Part shown: piece after piece, positions 45,537 to 55,323 of the stretch | How the letters are laid out: each line of letters begins with the position of its first letter | Numbering within the stretch: position 1 is the stretch's first letter | Source of the DNA: Geitlerinema sp. BBD 1991-9 | GTDB lineage: Bacteria; Cyanobacteriota; Cyanobacteriia; Cyanobacteriales; Geitlerinemataceae | NCBI GenBank assembly: GCA_001657325.1 | Contig: LWRO01000021.1 | Location: 124,001-188,000, forward strand | Reading direction: 5' to 3' | Length of the DNA: 64,000 bases | The notes under the pieces: generated by a model | Databases searched by the model: none | What the model saw: the letters and a program-made list of their open reading frames with translations, nothing else | Told to the model about the DNA's origin: nothing | Made by a program: the position numbers and the translations under genes

Positions 45537-47465
45537 ATGAGCTGGCTCACCTCTTCCCCAGACAAAGCGCCCGATCGATTTACAACGCGAACTCTGGCAG
45601 TGGCAGTTTGGAGCGAGCGAATGTGGCAGACGCTTTTAGCCATGGCGGCGATCGTACCGATCGTGATTCTCGGGGTAACGCTGGCCGTTTTTGTCTACGA
45701 AGCCATCTTATTTTTTCGCGAAATTTCTCCCTGGCAATTTCTAACCGATACGCAGTGGACTCCACAGTATGCGAGCCAGAAGTTTGGCATCGTCGTCATT
45801 GCGAGTGGAACGCTGCTCGTTACGACAATCGCGATGGCCATCGCCGTGCCGATCGGGCTTTTAGCTGCAATTTACCTCAGCGAATACGCCTCTCCTGCCG
45901 TTCGCAGCGTTGTCAAACCGACCCTTGAAGCTTTAGCCGGAATTCCCACCATTGTCTACGGCTATTTTGCTTTGTTGTTTATCACGCCAACGCTCCGATT
46001 GTGGATTCCCGACTTGAGCGGGTTTAACGCGCTCAGTGCGGGGATTGCGACCGGTATTTTAATTACACCGACCATTTCTTCAATTAGCGAAGATGCCGTT
46101 CGATCGGTTCCTTATGCCTTGCGAGAAGGGGCTTATGCCCTGGGTTTGACCAAGCGAGAAACGATCGTTCGCATTTTACTCCCCGTCGCGTTTCCCGGTA
46201 TCGTCGCGGCGTTAACGTTGGCAGCATCTCGGGCGTTTAGCGAAACGACGATTGCAGCGATCGCCGCCGGACAGGTTCCCAAACTGACGTTCGATCCCCT
46301 CGAATCAGTGGAAACGATGACGGCATATATCCTACAAGTGAGCCTCGGTGACGTTCAAACGGATTCTCTACTGTTTCACGCCATTTTTACCGTGGGCTTG
46401 GTGCTGTTTTTAGTCACGCTGTCGATGAACGCCTGGGGGCATTGGTTGGTGCGCCGTCACAGTCGCCAGATGGCTGGACTGGAAATTCCAAGAGCCGAAC
46501 GGAACGGATCGGTTTCATCAGCGATCGATTTGAGAGTATCGATTTCGCCAATGCGGGACGGCGACCTCGAACCGCTCGATCGAGATCGGTTTGATTTCAG
46601 GATCGATCGTCGAACGTCGATCGATCGACTGTTTACCGGAATCGGACTCTTCGCCACCCTGCTAGGGATCTTCGTATTTGTTATTTTGGCGTTCCAACTT
46701 CGCGTTGGCATTTCACATATCGACTGGCAGTTTTTGACCGGTTTTCCGTCTCGCAACGCTGAAAGCTCGGGAATTTATGCGGCGTTAGCGGGAACAGTTT
46801 GGTTGATGTTGTTGACTGCTGCGTTCGCGTTTCCCGTGGGTGTAGGAGCGGCGATTTATTTGGAAGAATATTTACCCCGAAATACGTTTAGCCGCATTTT
46901 AGAAATTAATCTTGCAAATTTAGCAGCAGTTCCGTCAATTTTGTATGGATTGCTCGGACTGGCGCTGTTCGCTCGCGCCTTGCCGGGTCTAACAGGTGGA
47001 CGCAGTTTGATCTCGGCCGCGTTGGTGATGTCAGCCATCGTGTTACCGTTACTGGCCATCGCGACGCGGGCAGCCTTGCGAACTGTACCTCAAAACCAGC
47101 GTCAAGCCGCTTATGCGGTGGGAATGACGCGCTGGCAGGTTATCCGCCATATCGTTCTTCCCACAGCTTTTCCAAGGATCTTGACGGGAATGTTGCTGTC
47201 TCTCTCGCGGGTGATGGGGGAAACGGTGCCACTGATCGCGATCGGAGCGGTGGCGTATATTTCCTTCGTCCCAGGGTTGTCGCTAGAAGGGTTGAGGGGA
47301 AATTTCACCACGCTTTCTACCCAAATTTTTTATTGGGTTTCTCGTCCGCAATCTGAGTTCCAAGAAATTGCGGCGGCGGCAATTTTAGTTTTGGGAATCT
47401 TGATTTTGTCCATCGACATCATGACGTTGTTTTTGCGAGATCGCAATCAGCATCGGCGGTCGTGA
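45537..47465 (+). CDS. Fused phosphate ABC transporter permease PstC-PstA
   Basis: 642 aa single frame joining two permeases. Residues about 1-315 match PstC (LTDTQWTPQYASQKFGI, IYLSEYASPAVRSVVKPTLE, EDAVRSVPYALREGAYALGL). An Arg/Asp-rich linker (about 316-365) leads into PstA (about 366-642: HIDWQFLTGFPSRNAESSGI, FPVGVGAAIYLEEYLPRN, NLAAVPSILYGLLGL, QRQAAYAVGMTRWQVIRHIV). Each half has its own EAA loop for PstB contact. Each half resembles, but is clearly distinct from, the separate pstC and pstA genes at 50327-52257. ATG at 45537. Expected partner: the pstB immediately downstream. Confidence 0.92.
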   Translation: MSWLTSSPDKAPDRFTTRTLAVAVWSERMWQTLLAMAAIVPIVILGVTLAVFVYEAILFFREISPWQFLTDTQWTPQYASQKFGIVVIASGTLLVTTIAMAIAVPIGLLAAIYLSEYASPAVRSVVKPTLEALAGIPTIVYGYFALLFITPTLRLWIPDLSGFNALSAGIATGILITPTISSISEDAVRSVPYALREGAYALGLTKRETIVRILLPVAFPGIVAALTLAASRAFSETTIAAIAAGQVPKLTFDPLESVETMTAYILQVSLGDVQTDSLLFHAIFTVGLVLFLVTLSMNAWGHWLVRRHSRQMAGLEIPRAERNGSVSSAIDLRVSISPMRDGDLEPLDRDRFDFRIDRRTSIDRLFTGIGLFATLLGIFVFVILAFQLRVGISHIDWQFLTGFPSRNAESSGIYAALAGTVWLMLLTAAFAFPVGVGAAIYLEEYLPRNTFSRILEINLANLAAVPSILYGLLGLALFARALPGLTGGRSLISAALVMSAIVLPLLAIATRAALRTVPQNQRQAAYAVGMTRWQVIRHIVLPTAFPRILTGMLLSLSRVMGETVPLIAIGAVAYISFVPGLSLEGLRGNFTTLSTQIFYWVSRPQSEFQEIAAAAILVLGILILSIDIMTLFLRDRNQHRRS

Positions 47466-47844
47466 AATGATTTTTTATATTGTTTTCAGGGTAGCAACTG
47501 TGTGTTTTGAAATGAACCGCATAAAATAGTAAAAGGCAGGAATCGTATTGGTTGCTTTAGAAATTTATTACGTATTTGAAAAACGTAGCTTTCATCTCAA
47601 TAAGCCTTTGCAGAGGGTGCATCTCACTTTGGCGATCGCAACCCCACCCCTCCTCCCCTGGCTAAGGGGGGGTGCCGTTCGCGGTAGCGGGACGGAGTCC
47701 TTAGGCGGAGGGGTCATTCTACGAAATTGAGATGCACCCTCTGCAGATGCAATCCCGAGTTCGAGTGATTTCCACTTCAGTTACTCCCATTTCTTTCTCG
47801 TTAGGCGTTTGTTTTTCTCCCTTGCCGTTGCCCTCTTGCCGCTC
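47466..47844. other. Intergenic DNA split by a MITE inside the first pst unit
   Basis: The 379 bp between fused pstCA and pstB contain a full MITE copy (47615-47739) and no gene. Without the element the gap would be about 245 bp. The insertion may separate pstB from the pstCA promoter. Confidence 0.7.
47615..47739. mobile_element. MITE copy 5 (GGGTGCATCTCA family)
   Basis: Left end GGGTGCATCTCA (47615), right end TGAGATGCACCC (47728-47739). Flanking octamers TTTGCAGA (47607-47614) and TCTGCAGA (47740-47747) match at 7 of 8. Orientation opposite to copies 2, 3, 4 and 6. An extra 28-bp insert (about 47674-47701) lies in the right half. Confidence 0.85.
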
Positions 47845-48738
47845 ATGAACACTCAACAGACTGTCAGCCACTCGCTCGATCGCTCGATCGAGCCGTTGCT
47901 ACAGGTCGAAAACTTATCGGTGTTTTATCAAGGCGTTCCCGCGTTGGTGGACGTGAATTTGACCCTCAATCGCCATCAGGTGACGGGGTTGATCGGGCCG
48001 TCAGGATGTGGAAAAAGTACGTTTCTACGGTGTTTGAATCGCCTCAACGATGAAATTGACGGGGCGACGGTGACCGGTCGGTTGCAACTGGGCGATCGAG
48101 ATTTGTCCGCACTCCATCCCGTAGAAGTCCGTCGGCGGGTCGGCATGGTCTTCCAACGACCGAATCCGTTTCCGAAGTCAATTTACGACAACATCGCTGT
48201 CGGACTGCACGTAAACGGCTATCGCGGCGATCTCGACGAGCGGGTCGAAACCTCTCTGCGTCAAGTGGGACTGTGGGAGGAGGTCAAACACGATCTCAAG
48301 CGGCACGCTTGGGATCTCTCGGGCGGTCAGCAACAACGTTTGTGTATCGCTCGAGCAATTGCCCTCGATCCAGAACTGATTTTGATGGACGAACCCTGTG
48401 CGTCTCTCGATCCAATTTCGTCAAACCGGATCGATGAATTGCTCTGTCAAATGAAGGAACGTTACACGATCGTTATCGTGACGCACAATCTCAAACAAGC
48501 CGCGCGGGTAACGGATTCGATCGCGTTTTTTAACGTGGAAACTCGACATTCAAAACTGTCTCGCTCGGTTCAGCCTTCAGGATGGTTTGGGCTGCGCTCC
48601 CCCATGCCTGTCCCCGAACGAGAAACGATCTATCGAGTCGGGCGCTTAGTCGAGTACGCCCCAACGTTAGAATTGTTTACGCGACCGAGCCATCGGAGTG
48701 CGCAGGAGTATCTGTCAGCTGGAACTCATCGTTATTGA
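47845..48738 (+). CDS. pstB: Phosphate ABC transporter ATP-binding protein (copy 1)
   Basis: 297 aa from ATG at 47845. Walker [11 protein letters not shown]-loop [20 protein letters not shown] signature [16 protein letters not shown], Walker B LILMDEPCASLDP and switch His in VIVTHNLKQAARVTD. Unlike usual PstB (about 255-275 aa), about 25 residues rich in basic amino acids and Pro (RHSKLSRSVQPSGWFGLRSP) are inserted between FFNVE and GRLVEYAPT. The catalytic parts are intact. It probably energises the fused PstCA upstream. Confidence 0.93.
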   Translation: MNTQQTVSHSLDRSIEPLLQVENLSVFYQGVPALVDVNLTLNRHQVTGLIGPSGCGKSTFLRCLNRLNDEIDGATVTGRLQLGDRDLSALHPVEVRRRVGMVFQRPNPFPKSIYDNIAVGLHVNGYRGDLDERVETSLRQVGLWEEVKHDLKRHAWDLSGGQQQRLCIARAIALDPELILMDEPCASLDPISSNRIDELLCQMKERYTIVIVTHNLKQAARVTDSIAFFNVETRHSKLSRSVQPSGWFGLRSPMPVPERETIYRVGRLVEYAPTLELFTRPSHRSAQEYLSAGTHRY

Positions 48739-49043: not shown

Positions 49044-49073
49044 CTTAACCAAATCTTAACTTATATTTAACTT
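49044..49073 (+). promoter_or_regulatory. Pho box (three 8-bp direct repeats) controlling pstS
   Basis: CTTAACCA (49044-49051), CTTAACTT (49055-49062) and TTTAACTT (49066-49073) are separated by 3-bp spacers. This agrees with the cyanobacterial PhoB/SphR site of three octamers. It lies about 120 bp before pstS, so phosphate starvation should induce the operon. Confidence 0.9.
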
Positions 49074-49196
49074 TGCCGAACGACAAAGATCGGAATATTG
49101 GTATGTGCTGAATCACCGCGTCACAGGTGCGCGATCGGCGAACTTCGCTCCGAGCATAGAAACTTCTAAATCGAGACTGACGTTACCTATCCACAC

Positions 49197-50254
49197 GTGA
49201 ATCGTATGGCTTTCAACCTCAAATTCAAACCCAAATCTCTCTCGTTACTAGCAGGAGTTCTCGCTTTAACCTTAGCCGCCTGTAGTGGCGGTGGTGGCGA
49301 CACGACAGCTGGAGACACGGCTGCAACCGACGGCGGTTCTGGCGTGAGCGGCGATGTCCTCATCGACGGCTCGAGTACCGTCTTCCCCATCTCCGAAGCC
49401 ATGGCGGAAGAATTCATGAACGCCAATTCTGACGTTCGCGTCACCGTCGGCGTATCTGGCTCCGGTGGCGGCTTCAAGAAATTCTGCGCGGGCGAAACGG
49501 ATATTTCCAACGCTTCTCGCCCCATCAAAGAATCTGAGATCGAAATCTGCGAAGAAAACGGCATTGAATTCATCGAACTGCCTGTCGCTTACGACGGGGT
49601 TTCCGTGGTCGTTCACCCCAACAACGATTGGGTAGAGTGCCTGAAGCCTGAAGAACTCGGCAAAATGTGGGAACCTGCTGCCGAAGGTGAAATCGCCAAG
49701 TGGAACCAAATCCGCGACGAATTTCCCGACCAAGACCTAGCGTTGTACGGACCGGGAACGGACTCCGGCACCTACGACTACTTCACCGATGCGACGACGG
49801 GTGAAGAAGGCGAAAGCCGTGGCGACTACACCGCCAGCGAAGACGACAACGTGATCGTTCAAGGGGTATCGACCGACGAAGGTGGTCTGGGCTTCTTCGG
49901 ATTTGCTTACTACGAAGAAAACAAAGACGCGCTGAAAGTCGTCAGCATCGAAAATTCAGAGGGTGAGTGCATCGTTCCCAGTGAAGAAAGTATTGCAGAC
50001 GGTACTTACAATCCCTTGTCCCGTCCGATTTTCTTCTACGTCAACACCCAGCTCTCGACGAGAAGCCTGCAGTTAAAGCCTTTGCCGAGTACCAACTGGC
50101 ACAGGAAAATATGGGTCTCGTGTCTGAAGTAGGTTATGTAGCGCTGACCGACGACATCCTGGACAAATCTCGGGAGCGTCTGGGTAACAAAGTGACCGGA
50201 ACCATGTTTGAAGGGGGTTCCTCTCTGGGCGTGAGTCTGTCTGACAAGCTGTAA
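49197..50254 (+). pseudogene. pstS: Phosphate-binding protein PstS with a frameshift near 50052
   Basis: Lipoprotein substrate-binding protein of the PstS/SphX type (starting GTG 49197 or ATG 49206). Lipobox LTLAAC with Cys29, [17 protein letters not shown] and [20 protein letters not shown] form the phosphate site. The frame ends early at 50132 after [10 protein letters not shown]. One base appears lost about 50052: in the next frame the sequence continues [31 protein letters not shown] and on to TAA at 50254, a normal C-terminus. Either a real one-base deletion or a sequencing error. A truncated product of 311 aa would lack the last domain part. Confidence 0.9.
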
Positions 50255-50292: not shown

Positions 50293-50326
50293 AACACTTT
50301 GATTCCATCACGTTCTCGGTTTGGCC

Positions 50327-51337
50327 ATGACTCGCGATATGCCTTCTAGTAACGTCGATCTCTGGCAACCTAATCGGACAGCCAGTAAACGTGTCGAAGG
50401 AATTGTAAAATTCATCTTCGGTGCGTTTGCGTTTTTATCCGTTGCCACGACGATCGGCATCGTTTTGACGTTAATTTTTGAAACGTTCGAGTTCTTTCTC
50501 GACGATTTTTTCCGCGACAAGCTGGCCGAGCAACTCGGGCGGCCGGTCGAAGGTTTTTTGGGAAGCATCCAAACGTTTCTCTATTCCTTCAAGCATTTCC
50601 TAACGGATACGAAATGGACACCGCTCTTTAGTAGCGCCCAGTTCGGCATCTTTGTCTTGATCGGTGCAACGGTGATGACTTCAGGGATTGCCATTCTCGT
50701 GGCACTTCCGCTCGGATTGTTTTCAGCCATTTGCTTGAGCGAGTATGCAACATCGCGCACGAGAAAGATTCTCAAGCCGATCCTAGAAATTCTCGCCGGG
50801 GTGCCGTCAGTCGTTTTCGGGTATTTCGCCTTACTGTTCATGACACCGCTGTTGAGGGCAATTAACATCCCCGTGCAAGGCTTTAACGCCCTGAGTGCCG
50901 GGCTTGTCCTCGGGATTTCCATCACGCCCCTGGTGGCCTCTTTGAGTGAAGATGCAATTTTTGCAGTTCCTCGGAGTTTGCGAGACGGGGCTTACGCCCT
51001 AGGTGCGACAAAACGGGAAACGATTATTTCCGTTGTCCTTCCGGCTGCACTGTCTGGGATCGTTTCGTCGTTGATTCTGGCAATTTCACGGGCGATCGGG
51101 GAAACGATGATCGTAACCCTGGCTGCCGGACAAAACCCCCGCTTAGGCTTTAATCCCTTCGTTCCTATTATGACGATGACGGCGTTTATCGTGCAGGTGA
51201 GCTTGGGAGATACTCCGGCGGGTTCGCTGGCGTATAAAACCATCTATGCCGTTGGGATGACGCTGTTTCTGATGACGCTCGTGCTAAATATCTTTAGCTT
51301 TTGGTTCGTCCGCCGATTCCGGGAGAAATACGAATAA
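50327..51337 (+). CDS. pstC: Phosphate ABC transporter permease PstC
   Basis: 336 aa from ATG at 50327. Six membrane helices. The conserved blocks [60 protein letters not shown] (EAA loop) and [20 protein letters not shown] identify PstC. Its stop TAA overlaps the pstA start (TAATG), so translation is coupled. Encodes the separate version of the half seen in the PstCA fusion. Confidence 0.94.
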
Positions 51338-52257
51338 TGACGACAAGAGATCCGCAAGCCCTGGAACAGAGCGCCCAACCTCCTTCCCAGCAATTTATCG
51401 CCAATCTGGACAAGCGCTACAACATCGATCGAATCTTTGCCATTGCCGTTTGGACTTCGGTCGCGATCGCCATCGTCGTCTTGGTGGTCTTGCTGCTTGA
51501 CGTTCTCATTGATGGTCTACCCCGTTTAAACTGGCAATTTCTGACGAGCTTCCCGTCTCGCAAACCCGAACAAGCGGGCTTGCTGTCGGCACTAGCCGGC
51601 AGCATCTGGATGATGGTAACGGTGGCTATCATTTCGTTTCCTTTGGGAGTCGGCGCGGGAATTTTCTTGGAAGAATTTGCTGAAGACAATTGGTTGACGC
51701 GGTTTATCGAAATCAACATCAACAACCTCGCTGGGGTTCCCTCAATTATTTACGGTTTGTTGGGGTTGATGGTTTTCGTCCGCATCATGTCGCCGATTAC
51801 GGGGGGACGGAGTTTGTTAGCCGGGGCGCTAACGTTGGTTTTGTTGATTCTGCCCGTGATTATCGTGGCGACTCGGGAGGCGTTGCGAGCTGTTCCCGAT
51901 AGCTTGCGTCTGGGGGGATTTGCCCTCGGCGCGACGCGCTGGCAGGTGGTTCGCGATCAAGTCTTTCCCATTGCTTTACCGGGGATTTTGACCGGGACGA
52001 TTTTGGCACTGTCGCGGGCGATCGGAGAAACGGCACCGCTGATTACGATCGGGGCGTTGACGTTTATTTCGTTTCTGCCAGAAAACTTGCAAAGTCCGTT
52101 TACCGTGCTGCCCATTCAGATTTACAACTGGGTGTCTCGCCCTCAAGCGGGATTCCACGTCAACGCCGCTGCGGGCATTATCGTCCTGATGGTGGTGTTA
52201 TTGGCAATGAACGCCTTTGCTATCTTCCTGCGGAATAAATTCCAACGCCGCTTTTAG
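51337..52257 (+). CDS. pstA: Phosphate ABC transporter permease PstA
   Basis: 306 aa. ATG at 51337 overlaps the pstC stop by one base. Helical permease with NWQFLTSFPSRKPEQAGLLS, FPLGVGAGIFLEEFAEDNWL, NNLAGVPSIIYGLLGL, TREALRAVPDSLRLGGFALG and VSRPQAGFHVNAAAGI. Pairs with PstC. The downstream pstB begins 75 bp later. Confidence 0.94.
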   Translation: MTTRDPQALEQSAQPPSQQFIANLDKRYNIDRIFAIAVWTSVAIAIVVLVVLLLDVLIDGLPRLNWQFLTSFPSRKPEQAGLLSALAGSIWMMVTVAIISFPLGVGAGIFLEEFAEDNWLTRFIEININNLAGVPSIIYGLLGLMVFVRIMSPITGGRSLLAGALTLVLLILPVIIVATREALRAVPDSLRLGGFALGATRWQVVRDQVFPIALPGILTGTILALSRAIGETAPLITIGALTFISFLPENLQSPFTVLPIQIYNWVSRPQAGFHVNAAAGIIVLMVVLLAMNAFAIFLRNKFQRRF

Positions 52258-52332
52258 AACGCTTTACGCCTGTTTTAAAGGACAGACGAATCTCGCCCTT
52301 ACAGACGGGTTGTCGCACTGTTGGGTATCAAT

Positions 52333-53148
52333 ATGGTTTCTCAATCTTCAAATAACGTGACAAACGCAACTTCTGACCTCGCCCTGCAAACCAACGACCT
52401 CAAGGTTTATTACGGTTCTAACCTTGCCGTGCGAGATGTCAGCCTCGACATTCCTAAAAACCAGGTTGTCGCTTTTATCGGACCGTCGGGATGCGGGAAA
52501 AGCACGGTGCTTCGTTGCTTCAACCGCATGAACGATCTGATTCCAGGGGCGCGGGTTGAAGGAAGAATTTCGTTCCACGGACAGGATTTATACGATTCCT
52601 CGGTCGATCCGGTGCAGCTGCGTCGGCGCATTGGGATGGTGTTTCAAAAGCCCAACCCTTTCCCGAAATCGATTTTTGAAAATATCGCGTTCGGGGCGCG
52701 GATTAACGGGTATAAAGGCGACATGGACGAACTCGTCGAGCAGTCGTTGCGAAAAGCTGCGATTTGGGACGAGGTGAAGGACAAGTTGCCAGAGAGTGGC
52801 TTGGCGTTGTCTGGCGGACAACAGCAGCGGTTGTGTATCGCTCGGGCGATCGCCATCGCACCGGAAATTATTTTGATGGACGAACCCTGCTCGGCGCTCG
52901 ACCCAATTTCGACCTTGCGCGTGGAAGAGTTGATTCACGAACTCAAGCAGCAGTACACGATCGTCATCGTGACCCACAATATGCAGCAAGCCTCGCGGGT
53001 GTCCGATCGAACAGCCTTCTACAACGCCGAAGCGACGGAGAAGGGGAATAAAGTCGGATATTTGGTGGAATACGACCAAACCACCACGATTTTTCACAAT
53101 CCCGCCAGGACGGAAACTCAAGATTACGTGAGCGGTCGTTTCGGTTAA
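52333..53148 (+). CDS. pstB: Phosphate ABC transporter ATP-binding protein (copy 2)
   Basis: 271 aa from ATG at 52333 (TTG at 52321 is less likely). Walker [11 protein letters not shown]-loop [17 protein letters not shown], signature [16 protein letters not shown], Walker [14 protein letters not shown], His switch [15 protein letters not shown], ending [20 protein letters not shown]. Standard size, without the insert of copy 1. Energises PstCA of the same operon. The regulator gene starts 25 bp after its stop. Confidence 0.95.
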
Positions 53149-53172: not shown

Positions 53173-53967
53173 ATGAACGATGCATTTGCCCCATTTCCGG
53201 GCGGGTTATTTCATCGATCGGGCGTTCCCGATGAAATTCTCGAACCTGCTCCGCTCGTTCGGGATTGGGAAATTCAAGTGTTGGTGGTCGCTCGGGAAGC
53301 TTCGGCGAGATCGATCGTTTCTGAGATTCTATCTGAAGAAGGCTTTCGGACGATCGAAGACGAGGACGGCCGGTTTGTTTCGGCACTTCTCGAAACCACG
53401 TTTTCCAATCCCCAATCTTTTCCTTTTCATTTGGTTGTTTTGGAGTCTCAGCTTTCGCGACGCAACGGTCTCGATTTGTGCCAGCGGTTGCGGCTTCAAA
53501 AGATTTTCGTACCGATCTTGATCTTAAACGATCGAGATCGTCAAGGCGATCGAATTCTCGGTTTGGAACGCGGTGCAGACGTTTGCTTGAGCCAACCGTT
53601 CGACAGCCGCGAACTCGTGGCACTTTGTCGCAGTTTGCTACGGCGTTTTTTAGGGTATTGGTCGCAGTTCTCCGTGCTTCAATTCGAGTCCGTCAAGCTC
53701 GATACGTGGGAACATCGGGTTTGGGTTCGAGATCGAGAAATCACACTGTCTCCCCAAGAGTTTCGCTTGCTCGGGTTATTAATGAGGCACCCCGGTCGAG
53801 TGTGGACACGGGAAGAACTACTCGATCGGGTTTGGAAAAGTAACGTTCACCGAAGTACGAAAACGGTAGACGTTCATATTAGCCAACTCCGCAAAAAAAT
53901 TGAACCCGACCCCAAAAATCCCAAATACATCCAAACCATACCGGGACGGGGCTATCAGTTCGGATAA
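53173..53967 (+). CDS. OmpR/PhoB-family regulator with a degenerate (aspartate-less) receiver
   Basis: 264 aa from ATG at 53173 (AAGG nine bases upstream). An N-terminal extension of about 30 residues precedes a receiver-like domain (35-155). The winged-helix DNA-binding domain follows (165-264: LSPQEFRLLGLLMRHPGRVW, TREELLDRVW, STKTVDVHISQLRKKI, GRGYQFG). In the receiver the phosphorylation Asp is Glu91 (VVLES), the acidic pair is Ala40-Arg41, the switch Thr is Asn119 and the conserved Lys is Gln141. It cannot be phosphorylated normally. It lies in the pst operon, 25 bp after pstB, with no sensor kinase nearby, so it may regulate phosphate genes constitutively or by another signal. Confidence 0.88.
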   Translation: MNDAFAPFPGGLFHRSGVPDEILEPAPLVRDWEIQVLVVAREASARSIVSEILSEEGFRTIEDEDGRFVSALLETTFSNPQSFPFHLVVLESQLSRRNGLDLCQRLRLQKIFVPILILNDRDRQGDRILGLERGADVCLSQPFDSRELVALCRSLLRRFLGYWSQFSVLQFESVKLDTWEHRVWVRDREITLSPQEFRLLGLLMRHPGRVWTREELLDRVWKSNVHRSTKTVDVHISQLRKKIEPDPKNPKYIQTIPGRGYQFG

Positions 53968-54276
53968 ACGCTATAACTATTTTATTTGAAGTTAAAAAGT
54001 TCGACAGGCTCGGATAGCTGTTCTGGGTGCATCTCAATTTCGTAAAACGACCCCTCCGCCTTCGGCACCTCCCCTTAGTCAGGTGAGGATGGGTGGGGTT
54101 CCGATCTCAAAAGTGAGATGCACCCCCTGTTCTAGATTCCTGTTCGATAGGCTTTTAGCAATGGGTCGATTGCCGAGTGAGTTGCTTGGAAAAGTACCTT
54201 AAAGCATTTCAAAAATTCGGTGTCAAGTTCGATTCGATGGCACGAAAAACCGTTGTAATTTCTCGATAAAACAGCC
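53968..54276. other. Intergenic region with MITE before the second pstS
   Basis: 309 bp between the regulator and pstS copy 2. A full MITE copy (54025-54125) takes a third of it. The remaining AT-richer 150 bp hold the second pstS promoter. An CTTAAAGC stretch near 54200 is a weak Pho-box-like half site only. Confidence 0.55.
54025..54125. mobile_element. MITE copy 6 (GGGTGCATCTCA family)
   Basis: Left end GGGTGCATCTCA (54025), right end TGAGATGCACCC-type (54114-54125). Flanking octamers GCTGTTCT (54017-54024) and CCTGTTCT (54126-54133) match at 7 of 8. Same orientation as copies 2 and 3. It separates the regulator gene from the second pstS. Confidence 0.85.
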
Positions 54277-55323
54277 ATGAACGTCAATTACTGCTTGCCG
54301 AAACTTCTTGCGACGTGGTCGATTGGTTTGAGTTTACTCGTTCTGGGAACGGGATGCCAACAAACACTCGAACCTCCGTCTGACTCGTCAGCTCAAGCAC
54401 AAACGCCGATGAGTTCCACGATTACAGTTGATGGGTCTAGCACGGTCTACCCCATTACGAACGAAATTGCTCAAGAATACCAACTCCTCGACACTCAAAA
54501 ACCACAAATTGACGTGTCTGTCTCGGGAACGGGCGGTGGTTTTCGCAAGTTTTGCGCGGGAGAAACCGACATCAGTAACGCCTCCCGTCCTATCTCGAAA
54601 TCGGAGATGGAAACCTGTAAACAAGCAGGCATTCGTTATATCGAACTTCCCATCGCCTACGACGCACTTACGGTCGTCGTCAACCCCGATAACGATTGGG
54701 CGAGCGATATCACGCTGGCCGAACTGAAGAAAATGTGGGAACCCGACGCAGAAGGACAAGTGACGACCTGGAGTCAAGTCCGCGAGGGTTGGCCGGACGA
54801 ACCGATGATCCTTTACGGGCCGGGAGAAGATTCGGGAACCTTCGATTACTTCACGGAAGCGATCGTTGGCGAGTCTGGAGACAGTCGTAAGGACTACACG
54901 GCGAGTGAAGACGATACACTGACCGTTCGTGGGGTCAGTCGCGACCTCAACGGATTGGGCTACTTCGGCTATGCGTACTATGAAGAAAACCTGACTCAGT
55001 TGAAAGCTATCGAAATTGAAGGTGTAGCCCCTTCGCGAGAAAACGTTGTTAACAGTGAGTATCAGCCGTTTTCGCGTCCGCTGTTTATTTACGTAAACGC
55101 TGATGCGCTCGACGCCAAGCCCGAACTTGAAAGTTTTGTCGATTACTATCTCACACACGGTCGGCAGTTTGTCAAAGTTGCGGGCTACGTTGCGCTTTCC
55201 GACGAAATTTACAATCTCGCTTACGAGCATTTTGTCGATCGTCGCGTGGGAACAGTATTTGAAGGAGAAGCACAATTCGGTCTCACGATCGAAGAACTCC
55301 TGCAAAAAGAAGCTGAATTTTAA
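54277..55323 (+). CDS. pstS: Phosphate-binding lipoprotein PstS (copy 2, SphX-like)
   Basis: 348 aa, intact. Lipobox LVLGTGC with Cys27. Ligand loops [36 protein letters not shown] and [15 protein letters not shown] match PstS, and the C-terminus runs to [14 protein letters not shown]. It keeps the part that the frameshift removes from copy 1. ATG at 54277. It has its own promoter region after a MITE; it could supply the binding function for either transporter. Confidence 0.94.

Follow-up and report, generated by a model that had tools for sequence, protein, structure and literature searches.

What does a response regulator do inside a phosphate-transport operon once its receiver has lost the residues used in phosphorylation? 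The question arises at a pst locus of Geitlerinema sp. BBD 1991-9, in a 64,000-nucleotide stretch of DNA that was analysed as a whole (the window). An open reading frame of 264 amino acids with an ATG start (53173-53967, forward strand) begins 24 bp 3' of the stop codon of pstB, and its position and Pfam domains bear out the original prediction of an OmpR-type protein after pstB. All genes of the locus lie on the forward strand and are arranged as pstS-pstC-pstA-pstB-regulator, with a second pstS-like gene behind them: pstS1 (49197-50254, frame broken near 50050), pstC (50321-51337) and pstA (51301-52257), both assigned from their open reading frames and from synteny with Baaleninema simplex, pstB (52321-53148), the regulator, and finally a second PstS-like binding protein (54277-55323; TIGR02136, 299.7 bits). 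The regulator is identified here as an SphR-like pseudo-response regulator from its reading frame, its domains and an orthologue in B. simplex PCC 7105, which is 72% identical and likewise lies between pstB and the second pstS (L046:10001-10795).

The surroundings of the operon deserve a brief description. The pstS1 reading frame stops at 50132 (311 aa) and the usual PstS C-terminus continues in a different frame (50051-50254); the counterpart in B. simplex is an intact 388-aa open reading frame, and either a sequencing error or a real frameshift could account for the break. Upstream, at 45537-48738, a further set of phosphate transporter genes includes a pstB of its own and encodes a permease of 642 aa in which PstC-like and PstA-like parts are fused; this fusion is present in B. 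simplex too (L046:2342-4342), and a position weight matrix scan finds no strong Pho box ahead of the set. Two related imperfect inverted repeats ('GGGTGCATCTCA...TGAGATGCACCC') occupy intergenic positions 47604-47750 and 54025-54125, one per pst cluster, and are probably copies of a single intergenic repeat family. No structured RNA was matched in Rfam between 47400 and 55600.

The regulator has the architecture of the OmpR/PhoB type, a receiver followed by a winged-helix DNA-binding domain, according to both Pfam (PF00072 Response_reg, 41.7 bits; PF00486 Trans_reg_C, 105.4 bits; both above cut-off) and an AF2 model that resembles RpaA, KdpE and MtrA. The N-terminal tail (residues 1-34, 53173-53274) is predicted to be disordered, with pLDDT below 50 over residues 8-31, and precedes the receiver (residues 35-158, 53275-53646) and the DNA-binding domain (residues 168-264, 53674-53964). 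Overall pLDDT is 84.8 and the two domains are folded, mostly with pLDDT above 90; the arrangement of the domains is unreliable (pTM 0.61), so that the arguments on dimerisation given below make no use of the model.

The receiver is degenerate in its phosphorylation pocket. Residues E40, D41, D91, S119, D137, Y138, K141 and R151 are invariant in 41 of 41 SphRs; the regulator has A, R, E, N, V, C, Q and L at these positions, and the B. simplex orthologue V, R, E, H, V, C, K and L. Both proteins thus share R41, E91 (codon GAG, 53443-53445), V137-C138 in place of the invariant Asp-Tyr, that is, the dimer-interface Asp (PMC4773095) and the switch Tyr (53581-53586), and L151. The replacements originally reported for the acidic pair (Ala40-Arg41), the phospho-Asp (Glu91), the Thr/Ser (Asn119) and the Lys (Gln141) are all found, K141Q being private to the window protein since the orthologue retains Lys. 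The alignment offers no alternative Asp at the phosphorylation site: D120 sits in the A120 column, where the orthologue has Glu. Twenty of the 63 receiver columns that are invariant in SphR are changed in both proteins, and among six pocket and switch positions picked from known receiver chemistry (E40, D41, D91, S119, K141, Y138) five are changed in both (P about 0.01). The protein is accordingly no canonical phosphorylatable response regulator; a Pfam receiver match with Glu at the Asp site, likewise in the orthologue, places it among the aspartate-less receivers or pseudo-receivers. To judge from these residues, phosphotransfer chemistry is gone in both orthologues.

In aspartate-less receivers the phospho-Asp is most often replaced by Glu (26%), and 609 aspartate-less OmpR-type proteins have been counted (PMC4395418). 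The original prediction proposed that Glu91 can mimic phosphorylation, and one could imagine a constitutive activator that binds the Pho boxes of SphR and holds the pst operon active with no need of a kinase: Asp-to-Glu changes do mimic phosphorylation in some regulators, and SphRs are the closest relatives of the protein. However, mimicry by Glu is thought to act through the conserved Thr/Ser and Lys (PMC12632262), which argues against a simple phosphomimic because the Thr/Ser is gone in both orthologues and the Lys in one. In ChxR, moreover, the Glu can be replaced without loss of DNA binding. As base-contact and transactivation residues of the regulator are altered too (see below), we consider a constitutive Pho-box activator improbable and the proposed mimicry weak.

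A remodelled pocket could also have been turned to another signal, with Cys138, which replaces the switch Tyr in both orthologues, as a redox sensor or the altered pocket as a ligand site. Thioredoxin targets do include some OmpR-type regulators of cyanobacteria (PMC4361706), and RitR provides a precedent for a redox sensor that evolved from a response regulator (PMC5965902). Yet SphR itself did not bind thioredoxin (PMC4361706), Cys138 lies in receiver strand 5 rather than at the place of RitR Cys128, and there is no sign that it is exposed; such a sensor therefore appears to us a poor candidate.

Where does this protein come from? The genome (5.98 Mb in 113 contigs) encodes 15 PF00486 domains, one of which belongs to a normal SphR on another contig (L001:985-1737) followed directly by an SphS-like kinase (L001:1766-3049), both named from intact pocket, similarity and gene order, and this separate, intact SphR-SphS pair led us to reject the idea that the regulator is SphR itself. 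The regulator scores 170.8 against the PhoB equivalog profile, under the cut-off of 296.2. It is about 47-49% identical to SphRs over the shared region, and its best matches in the other genomes searched (cyanobacteria) are SphR-like. In a tree of 54 regulators it forms with its orthologue a clade with support 1.0, placed beside all SphRs and outside the SphR clade. The stem that leads to the pair is very long (1.2 substitutions per site), and its members are 0.52 apart, compared with 0.07 for the SphRs of the same two genomes. The origin may be a duplication inside the family or an earlier one, the long stem being hard to place. There is no sign of a domain swap, since the similarity to the SphR consensus is about the same for the two domains (49% and 54%). 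The regulator has the domain architecture of the SphR of its own genome but differs from it in residues of the pocket, the dimer pair, the recognition helix, the wing and the transactivation loop, and in sitting inside the pst operon rather than beside a kinase. Two other OmpR-type regulators of the same genome, on L003 and L011, have altered acidic pairs (E-S and E-G) and keep the phospho-Asp.

The distribution of the gene is narrow. SphR and pstB occur in 14 of 14 family genomes and the regulator gene in 2 of 14, both of which keep one SphR each. The place beside pst is conserved in a second genus, but the gene is absent from 12 of 14 family genomes that keep pstB; there, pstB is followed by unrelated genes, e.g. 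thiD-like, sigma factor or folC-like, as named from inspection of translations. Sampling 391 genomes from the order and 390 from the class brought up no further orthologue at E<=1e-66, a cut-off that more divergent orthologues could escape. Between the two carriers pstB is 91% identical, compared with 81-86% to the rest of the family, which fits a single gain in their common line; loss elsewhere would be possible as well. Because 12 of 14 family genomes are without the gene though pstB and SphR are kept, the regulator is a rare lineage-specific addition and no general second layer of phosphate control; absence of the gene from relatives with the operon had been named in the original prediction as evidence against it, and at the level of the family this is what is seen.

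Within this lineage the gene is maintained. The ratio dN/dS between regulator and orthologue is 0.147 for the receiver, 0.127 for the DNA-binding domain and 0.58 for the N-terminal tail, which evolves faster than the domains; for the same genomes it is 0.031 in SphR and 0.052 in pstB, all figures being approximate because synonymous changes approach saturation (dS about 1.2). Judged on the thin basis of two known orthologues, both domains evolve under purifying selection that is looser than in SphR. We considered a pseudogene and rejected it: the frame is open in two genera, and dN/dS is well under 1 in both domains, which is not what a decaying gene would give.

What signal, then, would turn the gene on? 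A triple Pho box, CTTAACCA.aat.CTTAACTT.ata.TTTAACTT, lies 5' of the operon at 49044-49073 (forward strand) and is near-perfect for SphR, known to activate by way of three or more 8-bp repeats of this kind (PMC1906773). When the window was scanned with a small matrix of cyanobacterial Pho boxes, this site, already proposed in the original prediction, was confirmed with a score of 30.4; the next-best score (15.9) is its own reverse-strand overlap and the next independent site reaches 14.0, so that the whole 64 kb contains one strong triple Pho box. It is conserved at the same place in B. simplex (L046:5835-5864, score 26.4). The window contains no HATPase_c kinase, in agreement with the earlier remark that no histidine kinase is nearby, the closest on the contig being about 120 kb off. 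With a strong Pho box upstream and no kinase in the window, the operon including the regulator gene is most likely driven by SphR; co-transcription of pstB and the regulator across the 24-bp gap is assumed. The leader of about 120 bp between the Pho box and pstS1 (49074-49200) has a strongly conserved counterpart in B. simplex and a partly conserved one in L162. We rejected this leader as a target site of the regulator itself, since it is partly present in L162, which is without the gene.

The original prediction held the DNA-binding domain to be intact. This is true of the fold, which the AF2 model retains, but two residues of the recognition helix, an Arg of the wing and the transactivation loop are changed. 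Arg237, Trp238 and Arg257 are invariant in 41 SphRs and replaced by Ser, Gln and Pro in both orthologues; the first two belong to the recognition helix (residues 229-243, 53857-53901, from alignment and AF2). PhoB contacts bases through T194, V197, R201 and R219 (PMC3264566). By a by-hand alignment of PhoB with the regulator, the equivalents T231 and V234 are kept and two others are changed (W238Q and R257P), with the neighbouring R237S in addition; the DNA-backbone clamp R240 and T255 is kept. Binding of the regulator to the Pho boxes of SphR is doubtful because two of four base-contact positions differ from SphR, besides R237S.

The transactivation loop (residues 221-228, 53833-53856; for its role see PMC3973317) is charge-reversed with respect to SphR. 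In SphRs it reads WGxDFVGDSKT or near, with a charge of -1 in 40 of 41; in the two orthologues it reads WKSNVHRSTKT and WKRSVQRSTKT, with a charge of +3/+4. Activation by PhoB is abolished by the substitutions W184R, G185R, V190M and D192G, and E191 belongs to an acidic patch facing sigma (PMC3973317). The regulator does not have the make-up of a PhoB-type, sigma-contacting activator: W221 is kept, but Lys and Ser take the places of G185 and E191, and these two residues make a PhoB-style activator unlikely. The positive loop could just contact DNA or RNA polymerase differently.

A repressive effect might also be exerted through protein contact, if mixed dimers with SphR blunted the phosphate response. 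KdpE dimerises through three intermolecular pairs (PMC4773095), two of which, E132-R153 and D136-R158, are kept in the regulator; E147 of the dimer face is kept too, and expression from within the operon would lift the level of such a partner as the response builds. The third pair, D137-R151, invariant in SphR, is V137-L151 in both orthologues and would mismatch the Asp and Arg of SphR, so that we see little likelihood in a dominant-negative partner. Mutation of the D101-R115 region makes PhoB and PhoP monomeric, and by analogy the regulator might not dimerise, as its D137-R151 pair is changed; the matched V137-L151 may instead keep the homodimer and discourage mixing with SphR.

These elements suggest a mechanism in which the regulator, an aspartate-less OmpR/PhoB-type DNA-binding protein and divergent SphR relative confined to the lineage of this strain and B. 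simplex, would be transcribed with the pst operon from the Pho box at 49044-49073. Driven by phosphorylated SphR, it would be made only under phosphate shortage, and its activity would be set by dose instead of a phosphoryl group. It would probably dimerise via its modified alpha4-beta5-alpha5 face and probably bind DNA with an altered sequence preference, at targets that we can only infer. As the charge-reversed loop would not recruit sigma in the manner of PhoB, it would repress phosphate-responsive or other promoters or act on them as a feedback brake, a sign of regulation that is inferred from likeness to PhoB mutants. A starvation-induced, phosphorylation-independent, non-activating SphR-like DNA binder acting as a brake is the most likely of the explanations considered, and we give it a little under an even chance.

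Its main rival is a second-tier activator comparable to PtrA, induced by the first-tier system and switching on a late phosphate-starvation gene set from a site of its own, with RNA-polymerase contacts other than the acidic loop of PhoB. That R237S, W238Q and R257P occur in both orthologues suggests such a site; PtrA is a documented case of such a cascade (PMC11098088), and ChxR activates without phosphorylation though its loop residues differ from those of OmpR. Against this, mutations in the corresponding loop of PhoB abolish activation and a target site was not found, which leaves the second-tier activator rather unlikely in our estimate, below the brake. PtrA, a CRP-family protein of marine Synechococcus, belongs to an unrelated protein family and is a functional analogy only, as a second regulator under a phosphate two-component system (PMC11098088).

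Aspartate-less OmpR/PhoB regulators such as ChxR are a known class, and the regulator is not a new kind of protein. In ChxR (Chlamydia), HP1043 (Helicobacter) and RitR (Streptococcus), too, the phospho-Asp is replaced (by Glu in ChxR), other pocket residues are lost and the OmpR-type DNA-binding domain is kept; the regulator differs from them in its lineage, which is SphR-related, and in residing in a nutrient-transport operon predicted to be under the control of its own paralogue. We found no description of this regulator, its kinship with SphR, its place in the operon or its coordinated changes in the literature searched. A kinase-independent second layer beside SphS/SphR, as first proposed, agrees with the missing phosphorylation chemistry, the position in the operon and the normal SphS/SphR elsewhere in the genome, but not as a general feature of these organisms.

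The locus provides a clear example of joint change in the pocket, the dimer pair, the activation loop and the DNA contacts of a regulator paralogue, and the control and role of pseudo-response regulators are an open question (PMC12632262). With the parent type (SphR), the operon, the Pho box and a named strain (B. simplex PCC 7105) in hand, expression, targets and sign of regulation are directly testable. We tentatively propose that a kinase-blind, activation-incompetent SphR relative inside an SphR-activated operon serves as a dose-dependent brake or as a second-tier switch that reads a DNA code of its own; if true, this would be a layer of phosphate control not described in cyanobacteria.
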